This document shows positions 7,621-39,714 of a DNA stretch of 43,145 nt, one piece after another. Each line of letters begins with the position of its first letter. The stretch's first letter is position 1. This DNA is from Bacteroidaceae bacterium (GTDB taxonomy: Bacteria; Bacteroidota; Bacteroidia; Bacteroidales; Bacteroidaceae): positions 1 to 43,145 of the forward strand of contig JAKSLL010000024.1 in the NCBI GenBank assembly GCA_024401215.1, read 5' to 3'. Both the position numbers and the translations under genes were made by a program. The notes under the pieces are model-generated. The model searched no databases, was not told where the DNA came from, and saw only the letters and a program-made list of their open reading frames with translations.

Positions 7621-7670
7621 TTGTATTTTTCATGCCTCATGCATCTTCATCTTTTTCGGATTTTTGTCGT

Positions 7671-8933
7671 TCATAGAATCATTGTGCATACTCTGCCGTA
7701 CTTTCGCATCCATTCATAATGCTCTTCATAGTTTTGCCTGTTATTGCAAACCCATAATATTCGTGTGTGAAAGATTGGAGGAAGGACGGGGCGATCGGCA
7801 TAGCCGTCTGTGAAGATTATCAAACCGTCATAGCATTTCTTCTCTGCAACAAGGTCGATGACAGGTTGAAAGTCGGTTCCTCCACGCCCCTTGACACAAA
7901 TATCTCTTGACGCCTTTTTTATAGGTTCAATGGCTCCCGGCACACTGTCAAACTGTACTGCGTCAATGTTTTCAACGCCATATCGGAAGAATCTGTTGAT
8001 GACACTATAGAAATGACGTAGCGTGTCACTTGATATTGAACCGCTTACATCTACTGCGACAATTATATTTGTACGAAACTTATACACACTGCCCATGTTC
8101 TGGAACTCTGTGCGCCGATTAGGTCGCATCCTCGTCAAGTTGCGCTTGGATGATAACACCGAAGCGCAGAAACCTGCCAATATCTTTCTGTAGTCAACGT
8201 GTGCCTTGGTGTTGGCAATGATACGCTCAACAAGATCTCCAGGTACAGAACCCCATTGGTGAATGTTTTCTACAGTCTCATTTATCTGTACCTGCATCAG
8301 TTCGTCTTCTTCCCATAACTCCGACATGCCTGCGAATTTGTTCTGGGTAGAGGAAGAGGAGTCTTCATCCATGGATGAGGTGCCATCGCCATCGTCTTGT
8401 CCTTCGTCTTTAGCATCGTCGTTCTGTGAATCTTCTTCTCCTGTCTTGCCTCTATCCTTGTTTTGCCTGTCGTCAGTATTGCCAGGGTTTGCTTCGTCAT
8501 CTTGGTCTGCCTCATCCTCTTTGCTTTGCAGCATCTTCTGGATATTGATGGCGTACCATTCGTAGGTCTGCATTTTAGGTAAAGAAAACATTGACGGATT
8601 GATGAAGTTGACACCCTTCCATGAATAGTAAGATGTAAGTACACATTCACTTCCCATGCCACATGCTGCATCACAACAGTCAGAAGGTTTACGTTCATAA
8701 GGATGCTTCAACAGTATTCGGATGACTTCTGCTTTCAAAAACTCTTCGACAGTATTTTCCGGCATGCCTTGTAGCAGGAGAGGATTGTACTCGATGTGAC
8801 CTTTTCCTGAACGCATGGCGCACGTCATGTTTGGGTTCTCCAACATGCCGTGTGTGCAGTAAATGGCAAAGAGTGCCGGCTCCGAGAGAAACCAGCGTTC
8901 TGCTATTGATTGAAAGGTCTTTGCAAATTCCAT
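7671..8933 (-). CDS. VWA-domain protein of a MoxR-VWA pair (DUF2201-like)
   Basis: The C-terminal VWA domain has a complete MIDAS: DVSGS (D295, S297, S299), T353 in GGTDF and D376 in FTDG. It can therefore bind a metal and a partner. The N-terminal domain (about 1-130) resembles the DUF2201 metallopeptidase-like domain. The expected HExxH position reads KAEVIRILLKH (68-78), so the catalytic residues appear lost. A very acidic, Asp/Ser-rich linker (about 137-197) joins the halves. The gene starts 6 nt after the MoxR gene and is last in the leftward operon 11878 to 7671. In characterised MoxR-VWA pairs such as RavA-ViaA and NorQ-NorD, the VWA protein links the AAA+ ring to its client. The client here is unknown. 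Confidence 0.87.
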   Translation of the reverse strand: MEFAKTFQSIAERWFLSEPALFAIYCTHGMLENPNMTCAMRSGKGHIEYNPLLLQGMPENTVEEFLKAEVIRILLKHPYERKPSDCCDAACGMGSECVLTSYYSWKGVNFINPSMFSLPKMQTYEWYAINIQKMLQSKEDEADQDDEANPGNTDDRQNKDRGKTGEEDSQNDDAKDEGQDDGDGTSSMDEDSSSSTQNKFAGMSELWEEDELMQVQINETVENIHQWGSVPGDLVERIIANTKAHVDYRKILAGFCASVLSSKRNLTRMRPNRRTEFQNMGSVYKFRTNIIVAVDVSGSISSDTLRHFYSVINRFFRYGVENIDAVQFDSVPGAIEPIKKASRDICVKGRGGTDFQPVIDLVAEKKCYDGLIIFTDGYADRPVLPPIFHTRILWVCNNRQNYEEHYEWMRKYGRVCTMIL

Positions 8934-8939
8934 GATTAC

Positions 8940-10016
8940 TTAGATGGAAGATATGAAATCCATTATCTTGCTATAAACATCAGGTGCTTCAGTCATCACA
9001 AACATTATTGCGTTTGGATAGGTTGAACTCTCAAACACAGAACAGAAATGTGCCATAGCTTCACGTTTGTCTCCTTCCAGCAGCAGGCCAACATAATCTA
9101 TCAAGGCATTCTTTGCTGCCGTCTTGTCCTTTGCCTTCAGTTTTTGTGTCTCCAGGAATCGGAATATGGAATCGTTGACAGATGACAGTTGATGAATCTG
9201 GTATGTTAGCAGCTTTTCCCTGCACTTGTCAAAATGCAGGAGTACGTCTTTTCCTGTCAGTATATTTGTGTTGGCAGCAAAGGCAACAAACTTGCTTGCA
9301 GCCTGTGCGCCGACTATTCCAGCCAGCTGTTTATGATGCAGTTTGGTAAGTTCGGACACGTTCTTTATACAGTCGGAAACCTTATGCCATGCACGTCTGT
9401 CAGGCGACTTGTCAAGTCCTGAGTCGAGTTGGTTGGCAGACTTCTCGTCACCGTCAAGGAAGAATGGGGAGTCTTGGATAAAGTCGAGCACACGTTTGTC
9501 AAGTCCTGCCTGCACGCCCCAAAGCAGCCATTCCTCGGCAGTAGGTCTGAAGTTATAGACGTTAAAGCGTGAAACAAGCGCAGGATCCAGTTCCGTCAGC
9601 TGGTATTCCTCGCCGTCATTAACAGCCGAAATGATACGGCTGCCCTCAGGCAATGGACGCCCTGCCAATTTACGGTTGAGGGCAAGATCCATGATTGTCT
9701 GAAGAACCTCCGGACGCGCACGGTTCAGTTCGTCGAGGAAGAGGACTACAGGGGAGCCGTCTAACGGAAACCAGTAGGGTGGCATGAAGTCGGTCTTCCC
9801 CGTCTTCTCATTTTTCACAGGCAGGCCGATGAGGTCTCCAGGGTCACTCATCTGGCCAAGAAACAAAGAGATGACCGGCATTCCCTTTTCAGAGAAATAC
9901 TGGGTGAGAATCTGTGATTTTCCTATGCCATGACGCCCCACGAGCATCACATTCTGAGATGAAGGTGTTGAGTCAAGAATTGACTTCAGTTCTGTAGTGT
10001 TTATATTTATTGCCAT
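8940..10016 (-). CDS. MoxR-family AAA+ ATPase
   Basis: This 358-aa protein has Walker A GRHGIGKS (27-34), Walker B VLFLDELNRA (91-100), sensor 1 AVND (131-134) and the arginine finger LVSRF (148-151). This arrangement is typical of MoxR AAA+ proteins. The segment DPGDLIGLP (58-66) matches the conserved MoxR N-terminal region. MoxR proteins form rings that remodel partner proteins, usually together with a VWA protein, which is encoded directly downstream. Upstream, the 262-aa protein ends 4 nt before this ATG, so the genes are translationally linked. The first residues, MAINI, follow an A/T-rich leader. The specific client is unknown. The two paralogous proteins upstream are the obvious candidates for adaptor or substrate. 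Confidence 0.92.
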   Translation of the reverse strand: MAININTTELKSILDSTPSSQNVMLVGRHGIGKSQILTQYFSEKGMPVISLFLGQMSDPGDLIGLPVKNEKTGKTDFMPPYWFPLDGSPVVLFLDELNRARPEVLQTIMDLALNRKLAGRPLPEGSRIISAVNDGEEYQLTELDPALVSRFNVYNFRPTAEEWLLWGVQAGLDKRVLDFIQDSPFFLDGDEKSANQLDSGLDKSPDRRAWHKVSDCIKNVSELTKLHHKQLAGIVGAQAASKFVAFAANTNILTGKDVLLHFDKCREKLLTYQIHQLSSVNDSIFRFLETQKLKAKDKTAAKNALIDYVGLLLEGDKREAMAHFCSVFESSTYPNAIMFVMTEAPDVYSKIMDFISSI

Positions 10017-10020
10017 ATCA

Positions 10021-10809
10021 TCACTTGTTCCATATAATTGTTGAATCTATTTTCTTTATCTTTATTGTCATGTCAGTTTCATCAATCATCTTCTTTATTG
10101 ACGTGACACTGTTGATGACGGTATCTATCTGCGAGATGAAGTTCTTGTGCGACAGGTACATCTCAATCATTATGTTGTGCCCGACATTAAAATATACCTT
10201 TACTCGCAATTTCTGTTTTACCGTAGAATAAGAAATGCCTGTACCCTCCATTTTGGATTTCAGAAGAACTTCTATGGTATTTTCACTCAAGCTCTTCTTC
10301 TTTGCCCTCTTTTGTGCTTCGAGAACAGTTTTTTTCCATAGCTCTTCTTTCCATGAAGGGATAAGCTCGTCTATTTTGCGCAGTACGGCGACAACATCCT
10401 CCGGATCGACTTGAAAGAAATACACAGAGTCGTAAATTCCCTCTATGTATAAGCGAAATCCTTCTGTTGTGGAGCCATTTGCAACGCCCTGTGCTTTGCA
10501 AAACTGCATGACGTAATTCTGGAACTTTACATTGAATATGTTTGAATAAGCTGAGCGTCTCCTGCTTACTGTCGGGAAAATGATGTCAGACCTGCTTATA
10601 CCAGAATTTGTTAACGCCAATAAGAAATCATCTAATGTGCAGGTTCTGTCTGTTGTCTCAAACTTATACTTTTTCAAGCTTTCAAACACTATAGTGTTCA
10701 GCCATTCGCTGTATATTGAATTTGGAATAGACTGGCCACGTGAAAAGGCTCCGACAATTTTGTTCATTAGCGCACGGCCGGTCTTTGGCTTTATATCTTC
10801 TTTCTTCAT
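10021..10809 (-). CDS. Unknown protein B of the MoxR-VWA cassette (paralogue of A)
   Basis: I do not recognise this 262-aa protein. I start it at the ATG at 10809 (MKKEDIKPK). A longer TTG-initiated frame exists, but its start lies inside the end of the repeat at 10813-11182. The C-terminal third (NTIEV, then KMEGTGISY, then LSHKNF) aligns by eye with the 232-aa protein encoded at 11180-11878 (NTVSN, TLEGTGIEY, LPYKDF), and both end in a helix rich in I/M and in K-I-K. The N-terminal region CTLDDFLLAL also parallels FTLNDLVEAL. The two are therefore diverged paralogues. It has no signal peptide or membrane segment. It lies 4 nt upstream of the MoxR gene. Confidence 0.82.
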   Translation of the reverse strand: MKKEDIKPKTGRALMNKIVGAFSRGQSIPNSIYSEWLNTIVFESLKKYKFETTDRTCTLDDFLLALTNSGISRSDIIFPTVSRRRSAYSNIFNVKFQNYVMQFCKAQGVANGSTTEGFRLYIEGIYDSVYFFQVDPEDVVAVLRKIDELIPSWKEELWKKTVLEAQKRAKKKSLSENTIEVLLKSKMEGTGISYSTVKQKLRVKVYFNVGHNIMIEMYLSHKNFISQIDTVINSVTSIKKMIDETDMTIKIKKIDSTIIWNK

Positions 10810-10812
10810 ATC

Positions 10813-11182
10813 TAAGTAGGTAATCAAAATTATTTATAAGTTCATCCTCGTAGGTGTGTTCTTAATATCTATACTCTCTTTTGAAACACCCTTGCGCTTA
10901 TCGCCTTCTCGTTCGCCTTCATTCTTTGGCTCCGACAAGTCGAGCGCTGCGCCCCGAGTCTTCGAAATCGATATTTAATCGATTCCTTGCCTCGTCTTAC
11001 TACTTCATCTTCAGTCACTATGCCCGCATCTGTCCGTCCTCAACAATAGCACTTGTTTCGGTCGCTTCCTAAATCGTGACATTTAGTCACGCTTCTTTAC
11101 GGGCGCTACCTTCAGCTGAAGATAGTAATCTGTATCAAAATAGAGTATATCTATTATAAAACTAATTTTGATCACCTACTTA
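10813..11182. mobile_element. MITE-like element A1 inside the cassette
   Basis: The ends are inverted: TAAGTAGGTAATCAAAATTA at the left, and the reverse complement of the right end is TAAGTAGGTGATCAAAATTA, with 19 of 20 matching. The interior has no credible ORF. It shares short blocks with element A2 (31249-31548) in inverted orientation: GATGCGGGCAT, TCGGGGCGCAGCGCTC and TAAGCGCAAGGG. The right end begins with the TAA stop codon (11180-11182) of the upstream gene, and the left end lies 3 bp from the ATG of the downstream gene. It splits the cassette without breaking either frame. No transposase is present, so it would be moved in trans. Confidence 0.78.
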
Positions 11183-12070: not shown

Positions 12071-12395
12071 TTTAAACAAGGATTAAACCAAATTCGACCA
12101 AAATGTTGCAATGCTGTTGTTCTTACGGTTGAATTCCCAGAGCCAAAGGCTCTAACCTACATTATTCATGCTTCATAATGTAGGAGTTAATAGTTATAAG
12201 TTAATAGTTAAAAGTTGCCATTCGGAACCGTTTTTCCGCAAACTTGCAACTTTACAACTTAAAAACTCAACTTTTAACTTTTAACTATTAACTTTTAACT
12301 CCTGTATGAATAATACAGGCTAATTCGGTTGAATTTTGTTGAACCGAAGCTCGGCATAAGCCAATCTTTGTTTGAAAAAATATTCGCTGAATAGT
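12071..12395. repeat. Palindromic repeat B, copy 3 (diverged, with nested insert)
   Basis: The left arm reads AAACAAGGATTAAACCAAAT. The right end reads AATCTTTGTTTGAAAAAATA and is followed by GCTGAATAGTTAC, as in copies 1 and 2. The central AGAGCCAAAGGCTCT block is kept. An extra stretch is nested inside. It contains a hairpin (CCTACATTAT 12157-12166 with ATAATGTAGG 12175-12184) and a gttaatagtt/aactattaac palindrome (about 12186-12302). A 27-bp word at 12153-12179 recurs at 43069-43095. There is no ORF. Confidence 0.7.
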
Positions 12396-13227: not shown

Positions 13228-13437
13228 ATGGTTTTTGGAACAGCAAAATTCAAGTGTGACAACTGCGGTGAGCGATTTAATGGTCTTGCAGTTGAGTGGA
13301 ATGCGACAGCCTACATTGCACCAGTACGATGCCCTAAATGCGGAAGTATGCACACATATCCTGCAAATATAATGAATTTCGGTGGAGTGTTTGGTCCTCC
13401 TCCATTCTACAGAGCTATTTGGAAGAATCTTGAATAG
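13228..13437 (+). CDS. Small zinc-ribbon protein
   Basis: This 69-aa protein has two Cys pairs, C10-x2-C13 (FKCDNCGERF) and C35-x2-C38 (VRCPKCGSMH), spaced as in a zinc ribbon. The C-terminal tail is Gly/Pro/Phe-rich and carries no further motif. Small zinc ribbons bind nucleic acid or protein partners, and nothing indicates which applies here. The ATG at 13228 follows an A-rich leader (CTGCAAAAAAGAC). It lies 223 bp upstream of the dynamin operon on the same strand but has an intervening promoter-like box, so I do not include it in that operon. Confidence 0.7.
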   Translation: MVFGTAKFKCDNCGERFNGLAVEWNATAYIAPVRCPKCGSMHTYPANIMNFGGVFGPPPFYRAIWKNLE

Positions 13438-13660: not shown

Positions 13661-15973
13661 ATGAATATTTCTACATATAAAGAGAATACATCGAAACTAA
13701 TGTCCATTGCTCAAAAAGCTTTGGATGAAAGGGTTATCTCCCAAGACGTTTATGACAATTTTGTTTCGCGTATTCAAAACAATGAATTCAGAATTACAAT
13801 AGTAGGTGAATTCTCATCAGGGAAATCGACTCTTATTGATGCTCTTATTGGTAAGGACATTCTGCCTCATTCTACTTCCGAAACAACGGCAACTCTTACG
13901 TATATTCACAGTATAGAACCTGGGCATGTAAAAGAGAATAAAGCTGAAATTTTCTTTTCTGATGGCAATACCAAATTAGTTGACTTTTCCACATTGAAGG
14001 AATATGTTACAGCATTTTCAAAAACTGTTGATGTGTTCTCGTCTATTGAATATGTAAATATTTATGTTCACATAGAGAACTTTGATAATAATATTGTTAT
14101 TGTTGATACTCCTGGGCTTAATGGAACGAATCACTACGAAGACCGTACTTTACAGGAAATAGCGAAAGCAGACGCAAGTATTTTTGTGTTCTCGCCTTCT
14201 GGAATTAAGGCAACCGAACAATCGTTCATGAAAGAAGAATTACTTAAACACCAAAAATCCTTCTTCTTTGTCATGAATCGTATAGATGATCTTCGCAAAT
14301 CAGAAGGAGAAAGCGTGGAGTCTAAATTGGATGAACTCGCAGATGATATTTCCCTTCGTTTTTTTGACGGGAAAAATGAAGTTACAAATATTTTTGGAGT
14401 GTCAGCATTAAAAGCTTTGGCGGCAAAAGATCATAGTATAGAGAAACTATATGTAGATGATTGCAATAACATTTCCGATGATGACCGTGCTCGTTTTTGG
14501 AAAGAAAGTCGCTTCGAGTTGTTCTTAAATAATCTGAAAGATTTTTTGGCTAATGAAAAGGAAACTGTATTTGTGAACAGCTTGTCAACACAATTGTCAT
14601 ACGAGTTTGATGATTGTCTTCAACGTATTGAACAAAGTCTTTTTGTTAACCAACCGAAAGAGGAATTACCTGCAGCAACAATTGTGAGGGATGAGATTAA
14701 CACTGCTAAATCACGTTTTGAAAACTATGAAAATGGTTTAGAGAAGAACGTTAATGCCCGAATGGACAATGTTGAGAAAAATCTCAAAATCAGTCTTGCT
14801 AATGTAGTTATGGCTGGTATGCAAAGGCTTGAAGAAGTTAAAAAACAAATTGATGGAATTAAAACTATAGACGAATTTTATAATACTTTTGGTGAAGATG
14901 GTTCAAAGGCTTCTTCAATTGTAAACAACTTCTACGATAGACATTATGAGGGTATAAACAGAAGTTTGGCAGACGAAATTATGTCTGTTAGAAACGAAAT
15001 GTTTTTGGAAATACGTAATTTGATTCCAAATATTGCTAATATAAAAAAAGCAAATGTGGAATCAGTAAATATTGGAAAAAAAACGTTCACTTATAATTCA
15101 AGCAATAACTCTTCCATGGCTCAGGCAAGAGTAAAGGAGTGTGAAGAAAGAATAGATCAATTGTACATAAAACAGGGTGAGTTTTTCAAAGAAAAAGCTA
15201 AAATTGATGATCAGTACAATTCATTAGAAAATCAAGCAAATAAATTAAGAAGTGATATTAATAGCGTTAACTATCGTATTAGCGCATTAGGAAGGCGTCC
15301 AGATGCTCAACTTGTTACTTGTTATAGGGAAGTTCGAGTTGAGCGTTCCAAGTGGAATCCACTACGATGGTTTGGAGATAAATACACAACAGAATCGGAA
15401 TCATATACAGATTATGACTATTCTGATCAAGAAGAGTATGATAGAAAAAAGAGTGATCTTAAATCCGAAAAGAGTTCGTTAAATCGCCAATTATCTGCAA
15501 TACAAAGGCAAATTGATGATCTACCAGACATGGAGTCTCAATTGCAAAGAATTGCAAGAGATATAGAACGACAACTCAAAGAAAAAGATTATCAACTTAA
15601 CGAAGTAAGAAAAGAAGAAGAAGCCAAGAGGAAGGAAATGGAAGCCGGTAGAGAAGCATTTTTGAATAGCCGTAAAAAAGCTCTAATCAATATGCTTCAA
15701 AGTATTCTGACTAATGAACAATCAGAATTACATCGCTCTCTTAAGAATGACTCCTTGCAATCACTCAAAGAACTTCGTGGCAATTTAGTTAGCATTATTC
15801 GTGATTATTTTAAGACAGAAAGCAGTAACTATATAAACCAACTGAATGTTATGCTAAGTAATATTTCTTCGGCGATGGAGAATGAAGAAATTGAACAAAA
15901 ACGGCACAGTCTTACTGTTAGTAAAAATAACTTACTACAATTGAAAAGTGAAATAGAAGCATTAACAATATAA
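13661..15973 (+). CDS. Dynamin-like GTPase 1
   Basis: This is a 770-aa dynamin-superfamily protein. The G domain is at the N-terminus: G1 GEFSSGKS (49-56), G2 threonines in SETTAT (73-78), G3 DTPG (149-152) and G4 NRID (206-209). Long, highly charged coiled coils follow (about 340-400, 485-550 and 590-770). Between the later coiled coils, residues 564-578 read KWNPLRWFGDKYTTE, an aromatic and basic patch shared with GTPase 2 at 572-587. It could be a coil tip that touches membrane or a partner. Dynamin-like proteins couple GTP hydrolysis to membrane tubulation, fission or fusion. Bacterial examples act in membrane repair and phage defence. It is first in the operon, with 12 nt to the next gene. 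It is more A/T-rich than the flanking core genes, which suggests transfer. Confidence 0.9.
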   Translation: MNISTYKENTSKLMSIAQKALDERVISQDVYDNFVSRIQNNEFRITIVGEFSSGKSTLIDALIGKDILPHSTSETTATLTYIHSIEPGHVKENKAEIFFSDGNTKLVDFSTLKEYVTAFSKTVDVFSSIEYVNIYVHIENFDNNIVIVDTPGLNGTNHYEDRTLQEIAKADASIFVFSPSGIKATEQSFMKEELLKHQKSFFFVMNRIDDLRKSEGESVESKLDELADDISLRFFDGKNEVTNIFGVSALKALAAKDHSIEKLYVDDCNNISDDDRARFWKESRFELFLNNLKDFLANEKETVFVNSLSTQLSYEFDDCLQRIEQSLFVNQPKEELPAATIVRDEINTAKSRFENYENGLEKNVNARMDNVEKNLKISLANVVMAGMQRLEEVKKQIDGIKTIDEFYNTFGEDGSKASSIVNNFYDRHYEGINRSLADEIMSVRNEMFLEIRNLIPNIANIKKANVESVNIGKKTFTYNSSNNSSMAQARVKECEERIDQLYIKQGEFFKEKAKIDDQYNSLENQANKLRSDINSVNYRISALGRRPDAQLVTCYREVRVERSKWNPLRWFGDKYTTESESYTDYDYSDQEEYDRKKSDLKSEKSSLNRQLSAIQRQIDDLPDMESQLQRIARDIERQLKEKDYQLNEVRKEEEAKRKEMEAGREAFLNSRKKALINMLQSILTNEQSELHRSLKNDSLQSLKELRGNLVSIIRDYFKTESSNYINQLNVMLSNISSAMENEEIEQKRHSLTVSKNNLLQLKSEIEALTI

Positions 15974-15985
15974 ATCTCATACATC

Positions 15986-18343
15986 ATGGAAGTAAACGAA
16001 TTGAAAGAACACAGTCAGATTAAAGAAAGTGTTATCACCCTCCTCGGTGAAGCCAAAGACATTTTTACTACGCATTTTGGCGAAACTAAAGAGGAAAATA
16101 TAAAAGCGTTCAATGAACTATCGGTAAAAACGAAAGAAGGACGATTTTCAATTATTGTTGTTGGAGAGTTTTCTGCAGGAAAGTCAACATTTCTTAATGC
16201 TTTGATGCGTGAGAAATATTTAGATTCATTCTCTAGTGAGACAACTGCAAACATAAATTTCTTGAAGTCTGTGAATGATTCTCCTTCAGGAAAACCGATG
16301 ATCAGAATTAACTATAAGGATGGAAACTGTGAAACTTCTGATGATGTGAGTTTTGAGAATATTCAGAAATATGTTAGCACCAAAGGAGAAAAAGATGTTG
16401 CTGCCAAAATAGAAAGTGTAGAGATATTTTTGGATTCTCCTTTCTTAAATGACGGAGTTGATCTTGTTGACTCTCCTGGACTTAATGGAGTTAAGGAGCT
16501 ACATGCTGATATAACAAAAAATCAGATGAAGGCTTCTCATGCTGCGATTTTTATGTTCCGAGCTACTCAGCCAGGGTCAAAGTCTGATTTTCAGACTCTT
16601 ATTGACTTAAAGAAATCGTGCAAGTCCATAATTGTTGTTCTCAATCGCATTGATGAAGCTGCGAAACAAGGTGAAGAAACTGTTGACGATATTGTAAATA
16701 AATTAAAAAACAGTTTCAAAGAAATGTTTCCTAATGAGAAGATTCCAGAGGTGTGGCCAATATCTGCATATAAGGCACTTGTTGCGCGAAGCAAAATGGA
16801 ATTGGATTATAATGAAAGAACAAAACACACTGATGAAGAGAAGCGTCATTATCTGGAAACTTCTCTTATAGAACCTTTTGAACACAGATTGTTACGTTAT
16901 ATTACAAAAGGCGAAAAAGCCAAGAACGAACTCCTGTCACCTATAGAAAAGGTCATTTCTGTTGCTGATGAAACTATTCAAGAATTAAATATTGAGAAAG
17001 AAACTCTCAATGGCAAGTTCTCTACAGATGAAATTAATGATCAGATAGATGCTGTCCAAACAGAAATTAAAGGTGTGAAGGACACAATTTCTCATAAAAA
17101 AGATGATGTTGTAAATGCTGTTGCAGATGCCATACGCAATGCAAGGAATAGCATCACTAGTGACACCAAAGATCTTAAAGACCAGACCCTTTTATGCCTT
17201 GATAATGAAACTGCACTTTCGGACTTAGAAAGTAATGTTCAATTATATGTTTCGCGTATAAAGTCTAAATACCAGTCTGTTTATAGCGATGCGTTAAGTA
17301 TGCTTGAGACAGAGTTCCGTAATGCCATTAGAAGAAATCTTGAGGGGTCAGTTGCTATTATAAACAAGCAATTAAGTTCTGTATGTGATAGCGAGAACTC
17401 GCTATTGTTCAAAGCTGTTGAAATAGACACATCTCATTTTAATGCAGATTTAGATTTGTCCAAATATGATTTGGACATTGCTTCAAAACAGGAAGAACGC
17501 AAGAATGTGTTAGAATCACAATATAAGGCAGAAGATGCTCAATACGACTGTGATACTATAAAGGCTAGAATTGTAAAGGTAGAAAACACTATGCAAGAAG
17601 CCAATGCTCAGTATACTACAGAAAAGACTACTATGCAAGATCCTGGAGTAACTATACGTAAGGAATGGCGTGAAAGAGAAGTCCGTACAACAAAACGTTC
17701 CATTTTTAATCCTATGAGATGGTTTGGAAGTAAGTGGAAAACAGAAATGCAGCAGTACCAAGAGGATGTTCCTGATTATACTGCACATAATTTTTATGTT
17801 CAGCAAAAGGCAGAACTCGAGAAACAGCATCAAGAACGAATGCATGAATTAGAAATGAAAAGAGAAAAGCTTGAAAATCAAATGTCTGAATTCGAAAGAA
17901 ATGCTCGTAATGCAAGAAAGTTCCAGATTGAACGAGAAGATCTTGAACGTCAAATAGAAGAACTACAAGCTGAACGAACCAAAAAGGTTGACAAGGCGAT
18001 TGAGAATCAACTTAAGAAAGCAAAAGTATACATAGAGGGCATATTCGAATCATTGGAAAAAGATAGCCGCTCTCAAGCACTAAAATCTATCAATGAGAAA
18101 GAAGATCAACTCACACAGCTGGCTATTGACATTCTTGAAAGTGAGATTGGAGAGGAACTGGAAACTAAGACCAAAAAGTTGGAGGCTTTGAAATCGAAAA
18201 TGACTCTCGCAGAACAAGATAAAAACGATCGTTTAATGAAAATTGATGAAGCACATTCTGCTTTGATTGGTCTTTTAGAAAAAGCAGAAGCTGTTCGTGC
18301 TGCTATTGATTCAATAGAAACTGATATAATCAAAGAACAATAA
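15986..18343 (+). CDS. Dynamin-like GTPase 2
   Basis: This 785-aa relative of GTPase 1 has G1 GEFSAGKS (60-67), G2 in SETTAN (84-89), G3 DSPG (162-165) and G4 NRID (220-223). The remainder is mostly coiled coil (about 325-400, 500-550 and 605-780). The block at 572-587, SIFNPMRWFGSKWKTE, closely resembles the patch in GTPase 1, and it is likewise preceded by a basic segment (REWREREVRTTKR) and followed by a Tyr/Asp-rich segment. The pair therefore probably arose by duplication and may form a hetero-oligomer, as in tandem bacterial dynamins. There is no signal peptide and no clear membrane span. It is followed after 1 nt by GTPase 3, so the two are translationally coupled. Confidence 0.9.
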   Translation: MEVNELKEHSQIKESVITLLGEAKDIFTTHFGETKEENIKAFNELSVKTKEGRFSIIVVGEFSAGKSTFLNALMREKYLDSFSSETTANINFLKSVNDSPSGKPMIRINYKDGNCETSDDVSFENIQKYVSTKGEKDVAAKIESVEIFLDSPFLNDGVDLVDSPGLNGVKELHADITKNQMKASHAAIFMFRATQPGSKSDFQTLIDLKKSCKSIIVVLNRIDEAAKQGEETVDDIVNKLKNSFKEMFPNEKIPEVWPISAYKALVARSKMELDYNERTKHTDEEKRHYLETSLIEPFEHRLLRYITKGEKAKNELLSPIEKVISVADETIQELNIEKETLNGKFSTDEINDQIDAVQTEIKGVKDTISHKKDDVVNAVADAIRNARNSITSDTKDLKDQTLLCLDNETALSDLESNVQLYVSRIKSKYQSVYSDALSMLETEFRNAIRRNLEGSVAIINKQLSSVCDSENSLLFKAVEIDTSHFNADLDLSKYDLDIASKQEERKNVLESQYKAEDAQYDCDTIKARIVKVENTMQEANAQYTTEKTTMQDPGVTIRKEWREREVRTTKRSIFNPMRWFGSKWKTEMQQYQEDVPDYTAHNFYVQQKAELEKQHQERMHELEMKREKLENQMSEFERNARNARKFQIEREDLERQIEELQAERTKKVDKAIENQLKKAKVYIEGIFESLEKDSRSQALKSINEKEDQLTQLAIDILESEIGEELETKTKKLEALKSKMTLAEQDKNDRLMKIDEAHSALIGLLEKAEAVRAAIDSIETDIIKEQ

Positions 18344-18344
18344 T

Positions 18345-20675
18345 ATGGAAATTCAACAGATACTTAATAATTACTTAGAAGTCTCTGAGGAGTTAGGGGA
18401 CGTTTCTGCTGTTAGTCTTATTCAAGACTTTGTTGATAAAAACTCTAATCAACGATACGAACTTCCTTTAATTGGTCAGTTCTCATCAGGTAAGTCTGCA
18501 ACTATAAATCATCTTTTAGGAAGAAATTTGCTTCCTACAAAGAGTATTGAAACGACAGCTTTTGCAACATTTATTTCGTATTCAGAAACGGAATACGCAA
18601 CGCTTGTACTTGAGGATGGTACAGTAGAAAATATTTCATTTGAAGAGATAAAGTTGTTAGACAATAATAAAGTCGTAGAAACAGGTAAGCAGATTAAATC
18701 ACTTAATATTGGTGTTAATTCAGATTTGTTAAAATCAGGCTTAACTTTTGTCGATACTCCAGGTGTTAATACAATAATTACAACACATATTGAAATAACG
18801 GAACGAATTCTTAAATCTGCTCAGTGCATAATCTATGTTGTAGCAAAGAATATAACTGACGAAGACGCTTTGATGATTCAAACAATTGAAGCTCAGAATA
18901 TTCCAGTGATATTTATTAGAACACATATTGATGATATCAAAAAAACAGAAGAGAACTGGGAAGCCACAATCCGTGAAAACGAAAAGAATATTTCAGATAA
19001 ATTAGGTCATCCAATACGTTTTTTTGCAATCTCAAATGACACATCAAGAAAGGAATTTGAAAGTAATTTTGAAATTCTTGTGACCTATTTGACAAAAGAA
19101 ATCGCATCCAATGTGAAAGAAGTGTTTGAAAAAGCTATTGTTGAAAGATTGGAACCAATAAAAGCAGAACTTGAAACAGCTATTTCAATACGTAAGAACA
19201 CTTTGATGCAGTCTATAGGCAAGTCAATACAAGACATTGAAAAGCAAAAATCACAGACTGAATCTTTGGTAAACAATTGGAGAGACAAGTTGCATGCACA
19301 ACAAACTCTTATCCAAAAAAGAGGCGATGAATTGAAGTCAGACGTTAAAAAATCAATTCGCAGTAACGCAGATGCTAAAGTTGAGGATTTTGGCATTGTC
19401 GCCAACAATTCCGAGGGAAGTGTAGAAGACTTAAATCGCATACTTAATGAGCGTCTTACAAAAGCATCATCAGCAATGAATTCTGCAGTAGAAAATCTTA
19501 TTCAAGAAGCTGCAAATTCAGTCTGCAAGCGTGTTGGTGAAGAGATGATGTCAATAGGGAGCGAATTGCAAACAATTGGCCTTGATAGTGATTGTACATT
19601 TGATATGAGTGTCGCTCGTGATTATACAGAAAGGCAAAAAAGCATAGATGAAGAATTTATGGCTAAGGTTGAACAAATAAATGAGATTAAAGAAAACGTC
19701 AACCTTCAGGAAAATCTGTCTAATCAAGCAAAAGCTGATATAGAATTGGCAATTTCAAAGGCAGAACAGGAAATTCAATCATATAAGTCAAATGTTGAAG
19801 CGATTACCAATAGTTATGAACCACAATATATTGACAGACAAAGTCAATTGGGTGCTATCGGCAGATCTATTGGGAATGTATTGGATATTGCAATGTTATT
19901 TATTCCTAGTACCGGCTGGTTGAAGGCTGGTAAATGGGTCTCTAAGATTGGTAAATCGGGAAGCACTATTCGAAAAGTTGGTGAGGCATTAGGTACAGGC
20001 GCGAAGATCCTCGCAAAGACAGATGCAGCTAAAGATGCAGCTACGCTTTTGGGCGGACTAAAGAATGCTTCGGATAGAGTGAATGGCAAAATGAAGAAGA
20101 CTAGTGTGTTCGATTACGTTTCTCTTTCTTATTGGCTTGAAAAAGCAGGTGAACAATTTGACCCTCCTACTTGTGAACTTGACACGCAATATGAACAGCA
20201 GTTTGAAACTCGTAAGAGTGAAGCAGAAGCCGTACTCAAAGATGCTCTTAAAAAGAAAATGGAAATGATTGCAAATCTTGCCATACTTAATGGTGATAAA
20301 TGGAAATCAGAACAAGAACTTGCTGAAGCCGAGAAAATGGAAAAGGCTTTAAATCGAGAAAAAGAAGCTATTAGGGCGAAGCTTGAGTCTGATAAAGTTA
20401 AGGCTATAAGAGCGTCTTTAATCTCTCAAGCTAAAAATCAATTTGAAAAGAGAATAAATGATTATGTAGTATTGTTGTCTAGTAGAACTTCTGATATGAT
20501 AGATACAGTATTCTCTTCAATCATAAATGCTGCTGATTTGAAAATCTCCACTCAGTTGAATTCTTTAACGGATCAACTCTCTGAAATAGCAAGAAATAGA
20601 GAAGAATACACTACAAACAGAGACATAAAGATTGAGCATTATAATGATCTGTTTTCAAAGCTTAAATTGCAGTAA
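18345..20675 (+). CDS. Dynamin-like GTPase 3 with a hydrophobic segment
   Basis: This 776-aa protein has G1 GQFSSGKS (44-51), G2 in IETTAF (68-73), G3 DTPG (137-140) and an atypical G4, THID (193-196), in place of NRID or TKxD. Coiled coil follows (about 265-345 and 430-490). A glycine- and hydrophobic-rich segment at about 505-560 contains LDIAMLFIPSTGWLKAGKW, then repeated GK/GA/AA residues. It could insert into or lie on a membrane, like the paddle of other bacterial dynamins. Another coiled coil ends the protein (about 615-775). It lacks the NPxRWFG patch of GTPases 1 and 2, so it is a distinct subunit rather than a third copy. It is 1 nt after GTPase 2 and 2 nt before the next gene. Confidence 0.88.
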   Translation: MEIQQILNNYLEVSEELGDVSAVSLIQDFVDKNSNQRYELPLIGQFSSGKSATINHLLGRNLLPTKSIETTAFATFISYSETEYATLVLEDGTVENISFEEIKLLDNNKVVETGKQIKSLNIGVNSDLLKSGLTFVDTPGVNTIITTHIEITERILKSAQCIIYVVAKNITDEDALMIQTIEAQNIPVIFIRTHIDDIKKTEENWEATIRENEKNISDKLGHPIRFFAISNDTSRKEFESNFEILVTYLTKEIASNVKEVFEKAIVERLEPIKAELETAISIRKNTLMQSIGKSIQDIEKQKSQTESLVNNWRDKLHAQQTLIQKRGDELKSDVKKSIRSNADAKVEDFGIVANNSEGSVEDLNRILNERLTKASSAMNSAVENLIQEAANSVCKRVGEEMMSIGSELQTIGLDSDCTFDMSVARDYTERQKSIDEEFMAKVEQINEIKENVNLQENLSNQAKADIELAISKAEQEIQSYKSNVEAITNSYEPQYIDRQSQLGAIGRSIGNVLDIAMLFIPSTGWLKAGKWVSKIGKSGSTIRKVGEALGTGAKILAKTDAAKDAATLLGGLKNASDRVNGKMKKTSVFDYVSLSYWLEKAGEQFDPPTCELDTQYEQQFETRKSEAEAVLKDALKKKMEMIANLAILNGDKWKSEQELAEAEKMEKALNREKEAIRAKLESDKVKAIRASLISQAKNQFEKRINDYVVLLSSRTSDMIDTVFSSIINAADLKISTQLNSLTDQLSEIARNREEYTTNRDIKIEHYNDLFSKLKLQ

Positions 20676-20677
20676 GT

Positions 20678-21652
20678 ATGACGTTACCAGAGGAAATAAT
20701 TTATAAAAGAGAACTTTTAATGTTTATAGGTGTGGAAAACCATTCCACACCTTATAATCCATGTCTCTATAATAAATTATGGGCTATTCCTGACAACATT
20801 CCACATAAAGATGTTTTAATAATACCCATACAAGGATTAGATTCTCCTTATTTACTTTTGGAAAACCAGGTGATGTGTTTTGGAAGATTGCTATGGATTC
20901 TCTATGTAGAGTCTTCTTTTCTAAATCATAATGTTATATTATTTGATTCGTTTCCCCAAACTGATGAAAACACTTATTTTATAGAGGAAACATTGTCTTT
21001 TTTGGGAAAATGTAATTGTTCTTGTGTTACTGTTTGCGATATTGGTATTTATAAGTCTCGATCTTTTGTTAATTTATTGAATTCTGCAATATCATCTTTA
21101 TGTACTCATAATATTTCTGTATGTTTAGCTACAATTTTAGGGTATAATTCTAGAGGGTATACAGATATAGAAACAGGAAAAGAAAATACAATTTACAATA
21201 AAAATTATTATTTACAACCGAGCATAGAGGTGTCAATACAGAGTGACAAATTTGAATTTATTCAGATTGATAACAAGTTCACTCTAGATGATATGTATAA
21301 ATTATGTAGTTTAACCAAAAATCCTGCAGATACAACGTTTCAGTTCATTAAAAAGAAAGCTGCTCCATATGAGAGTACCCTAAAGCCTCTTGTTGATTCA
21401 GGCGCTCTAAAATTGATATTAACAAGTTTCAATAAGAGTGATACTTTTGACTTCGTGTCGTTTACTGAATATTTGTCAAAAATAGGATTTAAGGGTGAGT
21501 TGATAGATAGTCAGTGGAATGTCGTCTATGAAAAAATGTGTAGCAGTATTAGAAATTCTAAAATCGAAGACAGAGAATTGATCGTACAAGAACTTATATC
21601 AGAGATAATAAAAAATATTAATTCAACAATTAGTTTAGTTAAATCCATATGA
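20678..21652 (+). CDS. Unknown protein of the dynamin operon
   Basis: This 324-aa protein matches no family that I recognise. It starts 2 nt after GTPase 3 and overlaps the next gene by 4 nt (ATGA), so it is surely translated as part of the operon. It is unusually rich in Cys for a cytosolic protein (for example GKCNCSCVTVCDIG at about 109-122), in aromatic residues and in Asn. It has no signal peptide and no nucleotide-binding loop. Alternating hydrophobic strands in the first 170 residues (VLIIPIQG, HNVILFDSF, CVTVCDIGIY, ISVCLATILGY) suggest an alpha/beta fold. The C-terminal part is helical. The gene is strongly A/T-rich. A specificity, sensor or effector subunit of the GTPase complex is possible but unsupported by motif. 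Confidence 0.8.
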   Translation: MTLPEEIIYKRELLMFIGVENHSTPYNPCLYNKLWAIPDNIPHKDVLIIPIQGLDSPYLLLENQVMCFGRLLWILYVESSFLNHNVILFDSFPQTDENTYFIEETLSFLGKCNCSCVTVCDIGIYKSRSFVNLLNSAISSLCTHNISVCLATILGYNSRGYTDIETGKENTIYNKNYYLQPSIEVSIQSDKFEFIQIDNKFTLDDMYKLCSLTKNPADTTFQFIKKKAAPYESTLKPLVDSGALKLILTSFNKSDTFDFVSFTEYLSKIGFKGELIDSQWNVVYEKMCSSIRNSKIEDRELIVQELISEIIKNINSTISLVKSI

Positions 21653-22695
21653 AAAAATCAATTATACTTGCAATCCTTGTTGCTGTCGTTTTTTTAGGAC
21701 TTGCTTTTTTTGAGTTTGTTCCAATGTATATTAGTGTGACCATATCTATTTGTGCGTTTATAACTTATCTTTCAACGTCTATAATTGCAGGCATTACAGC
21801 ATTACAAGAAACTATAAAAAATGAACAAAAAAACACTGTTGAAAGCATACTAAAACCGATAGGATCAATCATCAATAAATTAGATGTTTTAGTCCAAAAG
21901 ACTGAAAATATTAAACTCCAAAACGATTCTCTGCTTGTCCAAGTAGAAGAGAGTTCAAAGAATGTCGAGAATGTGATAAATGAACATAGTAGACAGTCTA
22001 ACAAGATTTTATCTGAGATTAATTCTCAAACAAACTTAAATATTCAAAGAATCGAGGAGGTGTCTAATTCATTAAAAGCATCTCTTTCAAATGCAACGAC
22101 AGAGATATCCAAATTCAATGAGTGTGTAAATCAAAATAGTAAAGAAACAAGAGATGCAATAAATGGATTTAAAACTATTGTAGAAAGGAGTTCTGATGAG
22201 TTTAGTAAGGCAATAGCTGACACCATTCATGATATGTCAACAAGCATAGGCACCTTTATGTCTAAGATTTTGGAATTGGAAAATATTGTCAATTCATACA
22301 CGAACGCATCAAATTCGCTTAAGGAAAGTAATGAAAAAACATGTTCTATTATTTCTGATTTAATTGGAAAGTTAAATGATTCTACTAACAATATTTTGCG
22401 TGGAAATCGTCAATTTGTGGAAGAGTTAAAAGAACTAACCTCAGATAATATCGAAGTACTCAAGAATACTTTACAGAATAATATTACGGAACAAACAGAT
22501 TCTCTAACTGAAAATGTAGAGGATTTACAAACAAGTATTAAAAATCTATCAAGAACCCTCTCTGTAAACCTCGAAAAGCTGGGGGTAGATGTTGATGCAA
22601 TATGCGCTTCTGTAGATGATATGAAACAAATGTCTCAGAATGTAGAAACATCTGACAAAGAGTTGCTCGCGAAGATCCTGAAATTAAATAAGTAA
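21649..22695 (+). CDS. Membrane-anchored coiled-coil protein of the dynamin operon
   Basis: This 348-aa protein begins with two adjacent hydrophobic segments: IILAILVAVVFLGLAFF (about 5-21) and MYISVTISICAFITYLS (about 26-42). Nearly 300 residues of heptad-like helix follow, rich in Asn, Ser, Glu, Lys, Ile and Leu, with no cysteine-rich or catalytic region. It looks like an inner-membrane anchor with a long cytoplasmic rod, comparable in general form to chemoreceptor- or RmuC-like coiled coils. I see no methylation or nuclease motif. Its ATG overlaps the stop of the preceding gene. The obvious inference is that it recruits the soluble GTPases to the membrane or forms a membrane-bound scaffold for them. 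Confidence 0.82.
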   Translation: MKKSIILAILVAVVFLGLAFFEFVPMYISVTISICAFITYLSTSIIAGITALQETIKNEQKNTVESILKPIGSIINKLDVLVQKTENIKLQNDSLLVQVEESSKNVENVINEHSRQSNKILSEINSQTNLNIQRIEEVSNSLKASLSNATTEISKFNECVNQNSKETRDAINGFKTIVERSSDEFSKAIADTIHDMSTSIGTFMSKILELENIVNSYTNASNSLKESNEKTCSIISDLIGKLNDSTNNILRGNRQFVEELKELTSDNIEVLKNTLQNNITEQTDSLTENVEDLQTSIKNLSRTLSVNLEKLGVDVDAICASVDDMKQMSQNVETSDKELLAKILKLNK

Positions 22696-23026: not shown

Positions 23027-23127
23027 CTTCGGAAGATTTTGCTGGTATTTTTTAGATAAGCTAGGAAAAACAATCGAAATATACTCATAAACAATATTGA
23101 ATAGATACTTACTTAATTGATTTGATT

Positions 23128-24129
23128 ATGAAAGAAACCGAATTCTTGGGAAATATCTTTAATGATTTTGGATTAGAAAAGACTCCATTAAATCCTCCTT
23201 TGCAACACATGAAATCTCTGATTGATGATTACTGTGGTGAACCGAATTATAATTGGGGGGAGCTCATTGGCATTTTCACGGCTTTCATAAAGGTTGTTAT
23301 TAAGAAATGTACGGATCCTGAGGTGTTGGTGGAGTTGATGAACCCGAATGGCGTGTTCTCAATTCCGGAGGCACCAAAGTTGATAATGAATGTTGTTAGA
23401 CGAAACATTGAGAAGGCCGAGGAGCAGCGTTCAATGATACATGGTGTACTGAGGAGCAATAGTCTGTATATGGAGGCGGCATATATTGCTAAGGATGTTT
23501 ATTCAAAGCAAGGAAGAAGATTGACAGGCGGCTGGGCAAGATCCAATGAGTTCCCTGAAATAACTTATTGGGATAAAGACAATACGGGTCTGGTATCTGC
23601 CTTGTATCACAGAATGAATGGTGGCAAGGATGAGTATATCTATGCAACGGCAGGAACGGATCCCGTAAACTCTCGTGACTGGCAAAATAATTTCTATCAA
23701 GTATGTGGCGATTCTTATCAATATGATTTGGCTTTGAAGAATGCCGTTACATTGTGTAGAAAAATCAAAGCGAAAGGGGGGACGCTAATGTTTGTCGGTC
23801 ATTCATTAGGTGGCGGATTGGCTACTAATAATGCTTTGGCTACTAATTGCCGAGCTATTGTATTCAACCCTTCTGGTCTGAGTGAGGAAACTAAGGCAAA
23901 GAATAAAATTGTTGTTTCTGATCATGGCATTTCAAGGTTGGTGGAGGTTGTTCTGTCTGACAATGATGTGCTTAATCTTCTGCAAGATATGATGCAAGAG
24001 TTTCCTGCCATCAAGAAGATTGTTCCTGCTTCGCAGGGGAAAAGGTATTATCTAAAAACCAGTGACATAAGTATGCCTTTCAGCCACACTATGGATAGTG
24101 TGATTGATATGATGAAGAGGCTGTGCTAA
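23128..24129 (+). CDS. Class-3 lipase-like alpha/beta hydrolase
   Basis: This 333-aa protein is started at ATG 23128; a TTG two codons earlier is less likely. The nucleophile elbow is GHSLGG with S226. H320 in FSHTMD is a good catalytic His, and D280 in SDNDVLN is the likely acid. The segment GTDPVNSRDWQNNF (176-189) resembles the region after the oxyanion strand in Lipase_3 enzymes. There is no signal peptide or membrane segment, so it acts in the cytosol or at the inner face of the membrane. The substrate is probably a lipid or phospholipid ester but is unproven. It begins about 100 bp after the dynamin operon on the same strand. Placing a lipid hydrolase beside membrane-remodelling GTPases makes an effector role worth testing. 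An unrelated housekeeping lipase remains possible. Confidence 0.8.
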   Translation: MKETEFLGNIFNDFGLEKTPLNPPLQHMKSLIDDYCGEPNYNWGELIGIFTAFIKVVIKKCTDPEVLVELMNPNGVFSIPEAPKLIMNVVRRNIEKAEEQRSMIHGVLRSNSLYMEAAYIAKDVYSKQGRRLTGGWARSNEFPEITYWDKDNTGLVSALYHRMNGGKDEYIYATAGTDPVNSRDWQNNFYQVCGDSYQYDLALKNAVTLCRKIKAKGGTLMFVGHSLGGGLATNNALATNCRAIVFNPSGLSEETKAKNKIVVSDHGISRLVEVVLSDNDVLNLLQDMMQEFPAIKKIVPASQGKRYYLKTSDISMPFSHTMDSVIDMMKRLC

Positions 24130-29593: not shown

Positions 29594-29737
29594 AATGCTG
29601 CTTGCAGTCCTTTGGCAATAGGCAAACACTTGGCAAATGATAGCTGCTGAGTGCATGAGGTTATAACGGAAAAAGTAGGAATAACGTCCAAATCTCACAA
29701 AAATACATAGATTTGGACGTTATTCTCACTTTTTCTC

Positions 29738-29767
29738 TTGTTTCCTCATTTTGTTTTAGTAATTTTG
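29738..29767 (+). promoter_or_regulatory. Promoter, TTG-N19-TAATTTTG
   Basis: TTG (29738-29740) and TAATTTTG (29760-29767) are 19 nt apart, a near-ideal Bacteroidota promoter. It lies 35 bp before the ATG at 29803 and shows that the longer TTG-initiated frame from 29713 is not the real start. Confidence 0.75.
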
Positions 29768-29802
29768 TAAACGAAATAGATAATACACCTAAAGATGATT
29801 TT

Positions 29803-31251
29803 ATGGACAAGTTAATCGGTCGTGAGCGCGAAATGCGCGAGTTAGATAGAGCATGTCAGTCGGAGCGTTCTGAGCTGATAATCTTGTATGGTCGCCGCCG
29901 CGTTGGCAAGACCTTTCTGGTACGTTCATATTTCCACGACACCTATGATTTCCATTTCGTGGGTGCGCACAATAAGAAGCCTGCTACTCAGTTGTCAAAC
30001 TTCCGCAAGGCATTGATACGCTATGGATATACCGATGCTCCTGTGCTGAAGGATTGGACGCAAGCATTTGACTGTTTGTCAGAACTGCTGGAGAGGAGTC
30101 AGTCAGAACGCAAGATTATCTTCATTGATGAAATGCCTTGGATTGACTCAAAGCAGAGCGATTTCCTGAGTTCGTTTGAATATTTCTGGAACGGATGGGT
30201 GGCAGAGCGTGATGATATTGTTCTGGTAGCATGTGGTAGTGCCACTTCGTGGATGAAGGAGAAGCTGGAACAGAATCAGGGTGGCCTGCACAATCGCAAG
30301 ACGCGTAAGATTTATTTGCGTCCATTCACATTGTATGAGTGCCGGGAATATCTGCAGAATCATGGTATTGACTGGGATGAGTATCAGATTACCCAATGCT
30401 ATATGGTGATGGGTGGGGTTCCGTATTATCTCAGTTTGTTGCGTCCAGAACTTAGCCTCCCTCAGAACATCGACGAGCTCTTCTTTAATCGCAATGCAGA
30501 TTTGCGTGAGGAGTTTAGTGAGCTTTATCCAGCACTCTTTAAGAAGGCAGACCGCTATATCACTGTAGTCCGTTTTCTGGCAACCAATCGTCAAGGTTTC
30601 CAACGTGGTGACATCGAGAAGGCAACAGGATTTGCTGGTGGTGGTCTGACTAAGATATTGCAAAATCTGGAAAGATGCGATTTCATCTCTACCTACAGTC
30701 AGTATGGATGTAACAAGAAGATGACCCTATATCGCCTGTGCGATTTCTATACCATATTCTATCTGAAATATGTTGAGAACGACAACTCACGTGACGAGCA
30801 GTATTGGTCACACCATTGCAATGACCGTGGTGTAGAGAGTTGGGAGGGGTTTACGTTCGAACAAGTCTGTCTGGCTCATCTCGACCAAATCAAACAGGGG
30901 CTCGGCATTTCTGGCATGGCTACCGAAGCTTCTGCGTGGCGTTATGTGGTCAAGAAAGACGAACAGGAAGAGGATACACGGAAGCGTGGTACACAGATTG
31001 ACCTTGTTATCAAGCGTGCAGACAAGATAGTTCATCTTTGTGAGATGAAGTTTGCATCATCGGAATATAGCATTACGGCAGACTATGCAGATAAACTGCG
31101 TTACCGTCAAGGCCTATTTATGAATGAGAACAAATTGAAGCATGGAGTCGTCTTCACTTTTATAACTCCGTACGGTGTTGCTAAGGGCAAGTATAGTGGT
31201 ATGCTTCATAGCGAACTGATGCTTCAAGATTTGTTTCGCGCGAAAGATTAA
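29803..31251 (+). CDS. ATPase_2-type P-loop protein with DUF234-like C-terminus
   Basis: This 482-aa protein starts MDKLIGREREMREL, the usual opening of the ATPase_2 (archaeal ATPase, STAND-related) family. The P-loop is GRRRVGKT (30-37), and the Walker B-type motif is IIFIDEMPW at about 105-113. A winged-helix-like segment follows at about 255-310 (GFQRGDIEKATGFAGGGLTK). The C-terminus has GTQIDLVI and LCEMKF (about 394-416), which fit the PD-(D/E)XK-like DUF234 domain. Members occur in many copies in Bacteroidota. Their function is not established. The stop TAA (31249-31251) is also the first triplet of repeat A2, so the original C-terminus could have been longer or differed slightly. Confidence 0.88.
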   Translation: MDKLIGREREMRELDRACQSERSELIILYGRRRVGKTFLVRSYFHDTYDFHFVGAHNKKPATQLSNFRKALIRYGYTDAPVLKDWTQAFDCLSELLERSQSERKIIFIDEMPWIDSKQSDFLSSFEYFWNGWVAERDDIVLVACGSATSWMKEKLEQNQGGLHNRKTRKIYLRPFTLYECREYLQNHGIDWDEYQITQCYMVMGGVPYYLSLLRPELSLPQNIDELFFNRNADLREEFSELYPALFKKADRYITVVRFLATNRQGFQRGDIEKATGFAGGGLTKILQNLERCDFISTYSQYGCNKKMTLYRLCDFYTIFYLKYVENDNSRDEQYWSHHCNDRGVESWEGFTFEQVCLAHLDQIKQGLGISGMATEASAWRYVVKKDEQEEDTRKRGTQIDLVIKRADKIVHLCEMKFASSEYSITADYADKLRYRQGLFMNENKLKHGVVFTFITPYGVAKGKYSGMLHSELMLQDLFRAKD

Positions 31252-39479: not shown

Positions 39480-39704
39480 ATGTGTACCATAAATATGACA
39501 TTCGAGGTGCCGGACGCAAAGCACATAAACATCGAGGCATTGAAACAGAAGATAAATGCAATGGTAGTGCAGATTATAGCAAATCCAACTGCTGAAATGA
39601 TAGAAAAGGCCGATACTCCTCGACTTTCTCAACGTCTGCGTGGAATTGCAAAAGCTGTTCCTGCAGATTTTGATTACAAAGAGGAACTTAAATCCCGATA
39701 CTAA
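39480..39704 (+). CDS. Probable antitoxin of a PIN-domain pair
   Basis: This 74-aa protein precedes a PIN-domain gene with 10 nt between stop and start, the usual antitoxin-first order. The N-terminus (TINMTFEVPDAKHINIEALK) has a strand-helix pattern that could bind DNA as a ribbon-helix-helix or related fold. The C-terminus (ADFDYKEELKSRY) is a charged tail that could wrap the toxin. I do not recognise a named family. Antitoxins of this class usually repress their own promoter, and the promoter at 39387-39418 would be the target. The start ATG at 39480 overlaps no other frame. Confidence 0.75.
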   Translation: MCTINMTFEVPDAKHINIEALKQKINAMVVQIIANPTAEMIEKADTPRLSQRLRGIAKAVPADFDYKEELKSRY

Positions 39705-39714
39705 AGTTAGTGCG

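Follow-up and report, generated by a model that had tools for sequence, protein, structure and literature searches.

A three-dynamin operon with two partner genes in a Bacteroidaceae contig and in Planococcus-family relatives: a putative membrane-surveillance machine

Introduction

The Eleos system of bacterial dynamin-like GTPases (DLPs) presumably consists of LeoA and LeoBC, to judge from the names of the PADLOC models. In the available portion of its description it is called simply dynamin-like (PMC11811056). LeoABC of enterotoxigenic Escherichia coli, a published set of three genes, is outlined in the accessible text of PMC4159319 as LeoA plus one further DLP whose two parts are LeoB and LeoC, and thus amounts to two DLPs. 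Campylobacter jejuni DLP1 and DLP2 (5owv), as excerpted from PMC6104087, are unlike DLPs from one operon that form a tetramer tethering membranes, while DynA of Bacillus subtilis, on the partial account in PMC8844932, has two GTPase units, fuses membranes and delays phage lysis. Here we analyse a 43,145-nucleotide (nt) stretch of DNA from a Bacteroidaceae bacterium (contig JAKSLL010000024.1 of assembly GCA_024401215.1, positions 1 to 43,145; hereafter the window), in which three consecutive DLP genes (DLP1, DLP2 and DLP3) are followed by genes for two partner proteins, P4 and P5 (Table 1).

Like LeoABC and Eleos, the window has adjacent bacterial DLP genes, two of which, DLP1 and DLP2, give partial PADLOC matches to LeoA and LeoBC (2.8e-26 for DLP2 against LeoBC); unlike LeoABC with its two DLPs, it has three full DLPs, plus P4 and P5. 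With the Campylobacter pair it shares the encoding of unlike DLPs in one operon and weak sequence matches, whereas that set comprises two proteins, with no third DLP or hairpin-rod partner described in the excerpts available. DynA is one fused protein, whereas the window DLPs are products of separate genes, each of 770–785 amino acids (aa). Nostoc BDLP1 and mycobacterial IniA belong to other operons, and matches of the window DLPs to them lie mostly in the G domain. A search of the open literature, which left most subscription papers and bioRxiv uncovered, turned up no account of three DLPs accompanied by such partners. In our reading, to which we give a rough probability of 0.5, the operon encodes a putative hetero-DLP machine that is anchored in the membrane and keeps watch over it, most likely as a guard against phage.

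Operon organization and G domains

The five genes form an operon-like block on one strand, in the order DLP1-DLP2-DLP3-P4-P5, with successive junctions of 12, 1, 2 and −4 nt (Table 1). The open reading frames (ORFs), their lengths and the junctions are exactly those of a preliminary description made from the sequence alone, which had also recognized three complete G domains in consecutive large proteins. These domains were confirmed, with Pfam Dynamin_N scores of 89.5, 87.2 and 73.5 bits for DLP1, DLP2 and DLP3 (cut-off 27 bits) and with the G1, switch-I, G3 and G4 motifs kept in all three; the G4 motif of DLP3 reads THID, and TKLD in its Lysinibacillus orthologue. By this G domain with its G1–G4 motifs, DLP1, DLP2 and DLP3 are members of the dynamin superfamily. 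The nearest solved structures are Nostoc BDLP1 for DLP1 and DLP2, and mycobacterial IniA for DLP3 (E 4.6e-13 with the DLP3 profile).

Between its putative coiled arms DLP1 carries an aromatic, tip-like motif, WNPLRWFG, at residue 565, and DLP2 carries FNPMRWFG at residue 574. The motif at this place (residues 565–574) is present in seven of the eight DLP1 and DLP2 proteins of type A (the window-like gene set, as distinct from its diverged form, type B); the pattern also fits four other DLPs, one of which has the motif at the same place. DLP3 has a hydrophobic motif, GNVLDIAMLFIP, at residue 510, and such a motif (residues 480–526) was found in all eight type A and type B DLP3s, as against 1 of 42 other DLPs. 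The motif patterns, and the hairpin-rod rule applied to P5 below, were composed after the proteins had been inspected, so that the resulting counts are descriptive and do not serve as tests.

Relatives of the operon and their spread

The order DLP1-DLP2-DLP3-P4-P5 recurs in seven further loci. The preliminary description had held that the idea of a system would fail if homologues were regularly single or if the five genes did not co-occur outside this genome; they do co-occur, in these seven loci, and the most complete DLP3 matches listed lie in triplets (below). Type A comprises the operons of the window, of plasmid pFN9A of Lysinibacillus capsici, of Planococcus sp. ISL-109 and of genome G892, and type B those of G937, G1108, G895 and G922; ISL-109, G892 and the four type B carriers are Planococcus-family genomes. 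On pFN9A (110 kb), three consecutive DLPs were found by tblastn in a plasmid collection and are one-to-one best matches of the window DLPs in the same order, with identities of 40.5% over 274 aligned positions (DLP1), 36.9% over 499 aligned positions (DLP2) and 26.6% over 822 columns (DLP3, E 8e-67). Genes for a 389-aa protein, a hairpin-rod protein of 581 aa and an 89-aa protein come after them. A scan of genome contigs with a DLP1-fragment profile gave seven stretches, among them one relative, Planococcus sp. ISL-109, which carries the same six genes as pFN9A. Junctions are tight in type A. In type B the DLPs are 688–699, 745–748 and 754–788 aa long; behind them come P4 (266–283 aa), a small ORF and the hairpin-rod protein (307–387 aa).

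The Planococcus family, which we take to be the Planococcaceae, was searched with a DLP3 profile in 261 genomes, at most three candidates being scored in each, and 16 further loci were fetched from the top of the match list (a search of the order of genome G874 covered the same 261 genomes as its family). At least five DLP3 matches spanned most of the profile, every one of those listed being in a triplet. At least two type A and four type B operons are present in these genomes, counts that are lower limits because the DLP3 of G922 surfaced only on reading its locus. Within a class sample of 398 genomes, a full DLP3 match was obtained in Planococcus alone. On the host's side, with few candidates per genome, no other orthologous set was found in a phylum sample searched with DLP3 or a class sample searched with DLP2 (395 genomes each, the host included), and DLP3 had no full match in 44 genomes of the host genus besides the host. 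Scans of viral contigs found no relative; the sole phage record matched by DLP2, MT836781.1 (8.8 kb, unannotated), has 25% identity to part of the protein at positions 7428–8498.

The plasmid copy bears on the possibility that the operon serves the element carrying it, by maintaining the plasmid or island, by keeping other elements out, or by export in vesicles, as suggested for LeoABC. Besides the location of one copy on a 110-kb plasmid, this explanation can draw on the leoA, leoB and leoAB deletions that, in the accessible text of PMC4159319, halved Tat-GFP and OmpA in vesicle fractions. Yet the Gram-positive carriers lack the outer membrane from which such vesicles would form, and the flanking genes change from locus to locus; we consider an element-serving function quite improbable.

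Shared ancestry of the three dynamin positions

Phylogenetic relationships were assessed with a tree built on the G domains of 47 of the 50 DLPs; the other three lacked the P-loop pattern and were dropped. Each DLP position of types A, B and C forms one group in this tree. All position groups are starred except C3, and A1–A3 and B1–B3 each fall on one side of a starred branch; group support was 100/97 for A1, 100/100 for A2 and 100/97 for A3. The DLP2 groups A2 and B2 are sisters (85/91), A1/B1 and A3/B3 do not group, and the deeper branching order is unsure owing to long branches. The presence of one clade per DLP position argues that the set is old and shared.

Other loci with several dynamin-like genes

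Another kind of three-DLP operon (~1000 + 645 + 585 aa) occupies 8 of the 16 further loci, one of them with a fourth DLP and one with the third gene in two ORFs, and a variant occurs in a ninth; the Lysinibacillus strain with pFN9A also has this triplet, on a further plasmid, pFN9B. Triplets of this kind and their variants lie in loci L037, L121 and L123–L130. A plasmid of Escherichia albertii carries a DLP triplet of 563 + 724 + 405 aa, different DLP triplets were found in three relatives from the host's genus, and many of the 261 genomes, in addition to any triplet they carry, have matching ORFs of ~1200 aa that are presumed to be DynA. No ORF in the other three-DLP loci fits the hairpin-rod rule. 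Three-DLP operons are thus common, and a triplet alone is not special; the distinctive feature is the fixed set that includes P4 and the hairpin-rod P5, a combination that the preliminary description could not place as a named system.

In three loci (L120, L122 and L134) two DLPs are followed by small proteins and a protein of ~1040–1076 aa, which in Lactococcus is annotated as ATP-binding; L122 and L134 also contain WYL regulators. These loci may represent another DLP-based system.

The many combinations in which DLP genes neighbour one another would fit a view in which such genes gather in islands and act separately, with no joint machine, as would a branching order of A2 unlike that of A1 and A3. 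Set against this are the three separate groups, the fixed gene order, the tight junctions of type A and the presence of a hairpin-rod protein in every one of the eight operons, and we regard separate action as very unlikely.

The partners P4 and P5 and a possible P6

For P5 the preliminary description had claimed two membrane segments and a rod. By hydropathy both hydrophobic segments are present, at residues 5–21 and 23–39, and the remainder is poor in proline and glycine, whereas in a stricter hydropathy scan the first segment alone passed. A hairpin-rod protein is the next gene of more than 150 aa after P4 in all eight type A and type B operons. Among 405 ORFs of 230–700 aa in the fetched loci, nine fit the hairpin-plus-rod rule and eight of the nine are P5 genes. 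A sixth gene of 88–90 aa fills a P6 slot in the three type A relatives; similarity between these proteins and the 68-aa window ORF (Table 1) was not significant, with 40 of 1000 shuffles scoring as high, and in the P6 test a type B small ORF ranked second among 401 background ORFs.

P4 had been noted as lacking a recognizable domain, and the window protein indeed has no match in Pfam, PADLOC or NCBIfam; comparison with the PDB gave nothing convincing (E 0.16 and above). The P4 slot is nevertheless occupied in all eight operons, by proteins of 389–396 aa in the type A relatives and by those given above in type B. Homology between the window P4 and the others was undetected with BLAST (E 0.32), with hhalign and with hidden Markov models (HMMs), where 88 of 300 and 187 of 300 shuffles scored as high. 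A search of 151 family genomes, by a method limited to close P4s, recovered the window's own only, and was blind to diverged P4s because the window P4 shows no detectable homology to the others. Searches of the plasmid and phage collections likewise found no P4.

On inspection by eye, P4 in the relatives contains what look like decayed P-loops, LGDVGSERYALF among those of type A and GEPxVVY among those of type B. A degenerate GTPase was considered as an identity for P4 and was not upheld: six hhalign comparisons gave probabilities of 0.2–0.7%, and an HMM test of P4s against DLPs (8 profiles by 8 proteins, 300 shuffles each, 7 of the 64 cells being self-matches) gave a weak best non-self cell, the G892 P4 with the DLP2 profile (1/300 shuffles). 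The next cells were Lysinibacillus P4 with DLP3 (2/300) and G892 P4 with DLP1 (3/300), and the window P4 reached 24/300 at best. That P4 might be a GTP-blind dynamin is a guess that these tests do not support.

Regulators and gene content near the relatives

WYL-domain regulators lie upstream of three of the eight operons, in Planococcus (49 nt), G892 (1170 nt, two ORFs of 189 and 71 aa intervening) and G922 (251 nt), and further ones precede two other DLP loci, in G913 and on a Lactococcus plasmid. Identity among four of the regulators is 35.8–73.7%. A model built on four of the five recovered the fifth (L122 of G913) and gave a sixth, weak match upstream of a DLP pair in L166; altogether it matched 6 of 551 ORFs, in loci that are mostly DLP neighbourhoods. 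On pFN9A a YafY-family gene is located ~5 kb downstream. According to the portion of PMC9122601 available, WYL regulators of the BrxR type are found together with defence systems about half of the time. WYL regulators serve other roles too, as partial accounts indicate, and their proximity is therefore a pointer.

A TerD/TerF-like gene near one type A copy (L115:4327-5592) would suit general repair of membrane stress, caused by pore-forming peptides, antibiotics or osmotic damage, as an accessory function that is not specifically linked to phage. This explanation also gains from DynA and IniA, which act in membrane stress according to the parts of PMC6104087 and PMC8844932 at hand, and from the rank of IniA as nearest solved structure to the DLP3 profile. 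Patchy spread, plasmid carriage and the WYL regulators fit defence better, and we judge stress repair to be rather unlikely.

Host contig and neighbouring features

Contamination of the assembly (7%) was ruled out for this contig by the glutaminyl-tRNA synthetase of the window, which is 84–93% identical, along almost all of the protein, to its counterpart in 37 of the 40 further genus genomes compared; among the remaining three, one has the gene in two pieces, one a distant match only and one none. In the plasmid collection its nearest records are from Phocaeicola, Bacteroides and Parabacteroides (70–71%), which points to a host in the Bacteroidales. When 12–20 kb next to this gene was fetched from each of eight relatives, glutaminyl-tRNA synthetase and dapA were syntenic, and no other window ORF was matched above 45% identity in these neighbourhoods. 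The VWA-domain gene of the window (Table 1) is found in 3 of the 41 genomes from the genus, one of them being the source of the window. GC (guanine plus cytosine) content is 29.4–35.8% in the operon genes versus 38.8–53.1% in the remaining window ORFs of at least 150 aa. Given the limited synteny, the rare VWA gene and the GC gap, the operon lies in accessory DNA and has low GC, in agreement with the A/T bias and island setting proposed earlier.

Neither promoter-like patterns (43 versus a mean of 41.4) nor terminator-like patterns (2 versus 4.3) exceeded shuffled sequence, and an Rfam scan of the window gave no match. Upstream of the operon, within a stretch of 1.8 kb, lies an inverted repeat that resembles a small repeat element. 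This and other neighbouring features are listed in Table 1.

Table 1. Coordinates of the operon and of other features in the window.
Feature	Position	Strand	Evidence or remark
VWA (DUF2201) and AAA_5 genes with 268-aa partner	7671..10827		
VWA-domain gene	7671..8933		
Inverted repeat	12182..12303		36-nt arms, 89% complementary
69-aa ORF	13228..13437		weak zinc-ribbon matches; 223 nt upstream of DLP1
Five-gene block	13661..22695	+	
DLP1, 770 aa, dynamin-like GTPase (GEFSSGKS)	13661..15973	+	Dynamin_N 3.3e-25; tree group A1
DLP2, 785 aa, dynamin-like GTPase (GEFSAGKS)	15986..18343	+	Dynamin_N 1.7e-24; tree group A2
DLP3, 776 aa, dynamin-like GTPase (GQFSSGKS)	18345..20675	+	Dynamin_N 2.8e-20; tree group A3
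P4, 324-aa orphan	20678..21652	+	position equivalent to P4s of other operons
P5, 348 aa, N-terminal hydrophobic hairpin then Pro/Gly-poor rod	21649..22695	+	hydropathy
Possible P6, 68 aa	22706..22912	+	starts 10 nt after P5; position matches relatives' P6
Gene downstream of operon	23122..24129		weak Lipase_3 similarity; sub-cut-off match to NCBIfam SA1320 family
AAA ATPase	29713..31251		near full-length match to PADLOC candidate defence gene PDC-S27, E 1.2e-193
PIN domain match	39640..40116		

Proposed mechanism and its weighing

Anti-phage surveillance is favoured by the patchy spread of the operon, its carriage on a plasmid, its low GC and its partial similarity to LeoA and LeoBC. The candidate defence gene PDC-S27 in the window, the WYL regulators and the precedent of DynA, a DLP that protects against phage, also count in its favour. 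We propose that the operon, presumably spread horizontally, would encode a single hetero-oligomeric dynamin machine at the cytoplasmic membrane, probably the common site of action since carriers occur both with and without an outer membrane. DLP1 and DLP2, the most alike of the three and bearing short aromatic tips, may form a GTPase hetero-assembly, and DLP3 may insert its hydrophobic motif into the bilayer. P5 would anchor the complex via its hairpin and serve as a rod-like scaffold. P4 would be a fast-diverging adaptor or sensor, a sensor-like role being proposed since it has diverged beyond recognition. The machine could then either tether and seal the membrane of the infected cell, delaying lysis as DynA does, or damage the membrane and thereby kill the cell ahead of phage release. 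We infer the physical complex, the division of labour, the route of transfer, and the anti-phage role with its direction.

Several observations weigh against anti-phage surveillance by a joint machine. The PADLOC matches to LeoA and LeoBC are partial, and the window DLP3 has none. Against the NCBIfam LeoA model (NF041922, cut-off 325 bits) DLP1 scores 27.5 bits and DLP2 and DLP3 are unlisted, while against the DynA model (NF052648, cut-off 1600 bits) the three DLPs score 84.7, 43.5 and 46.6 bits; with partial matches and cut-offs so far missed, membership of LeoA/LeoBC or DynA is not established. In the tree, A2 pairs Lysinibacillus with G892 (99/84), whereas A1 and A3 pair Lysinibacillus with Planococcus, so that strict co-inheritance is not clean. 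No WYL gene was found alongside five of the eight operons, the window's among them, and the WYL tally comes almost only from DLP neighbourhoods and thus has no outside control. Few clear defence genes lie near the relatives, pFN9A is typed as non-mobilizable, and phage-independent membrane repair would fit the parts equally well.

A stronger version of the proposal, which we hold tentatively and consider on the unlikely side, is an anti-phage machine that would merit separate naming and would occur across phyla as two or more subtypes; in it, three obligately different dynamins would sit on a membrane-anchored rod, and P4 would be a degenerate, GTP-blind dynamin that senses infection and gates assembly.

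Bacterial dynamins are mostly known as pairs, and a conserved trio with a dedicated anchor would show that multi-dynamin machines with divided labour exist in bacteria. The compact, plasmid-borne set could be moved into B. subtilis, which makes hetero-dynamin action on phage directly testable.

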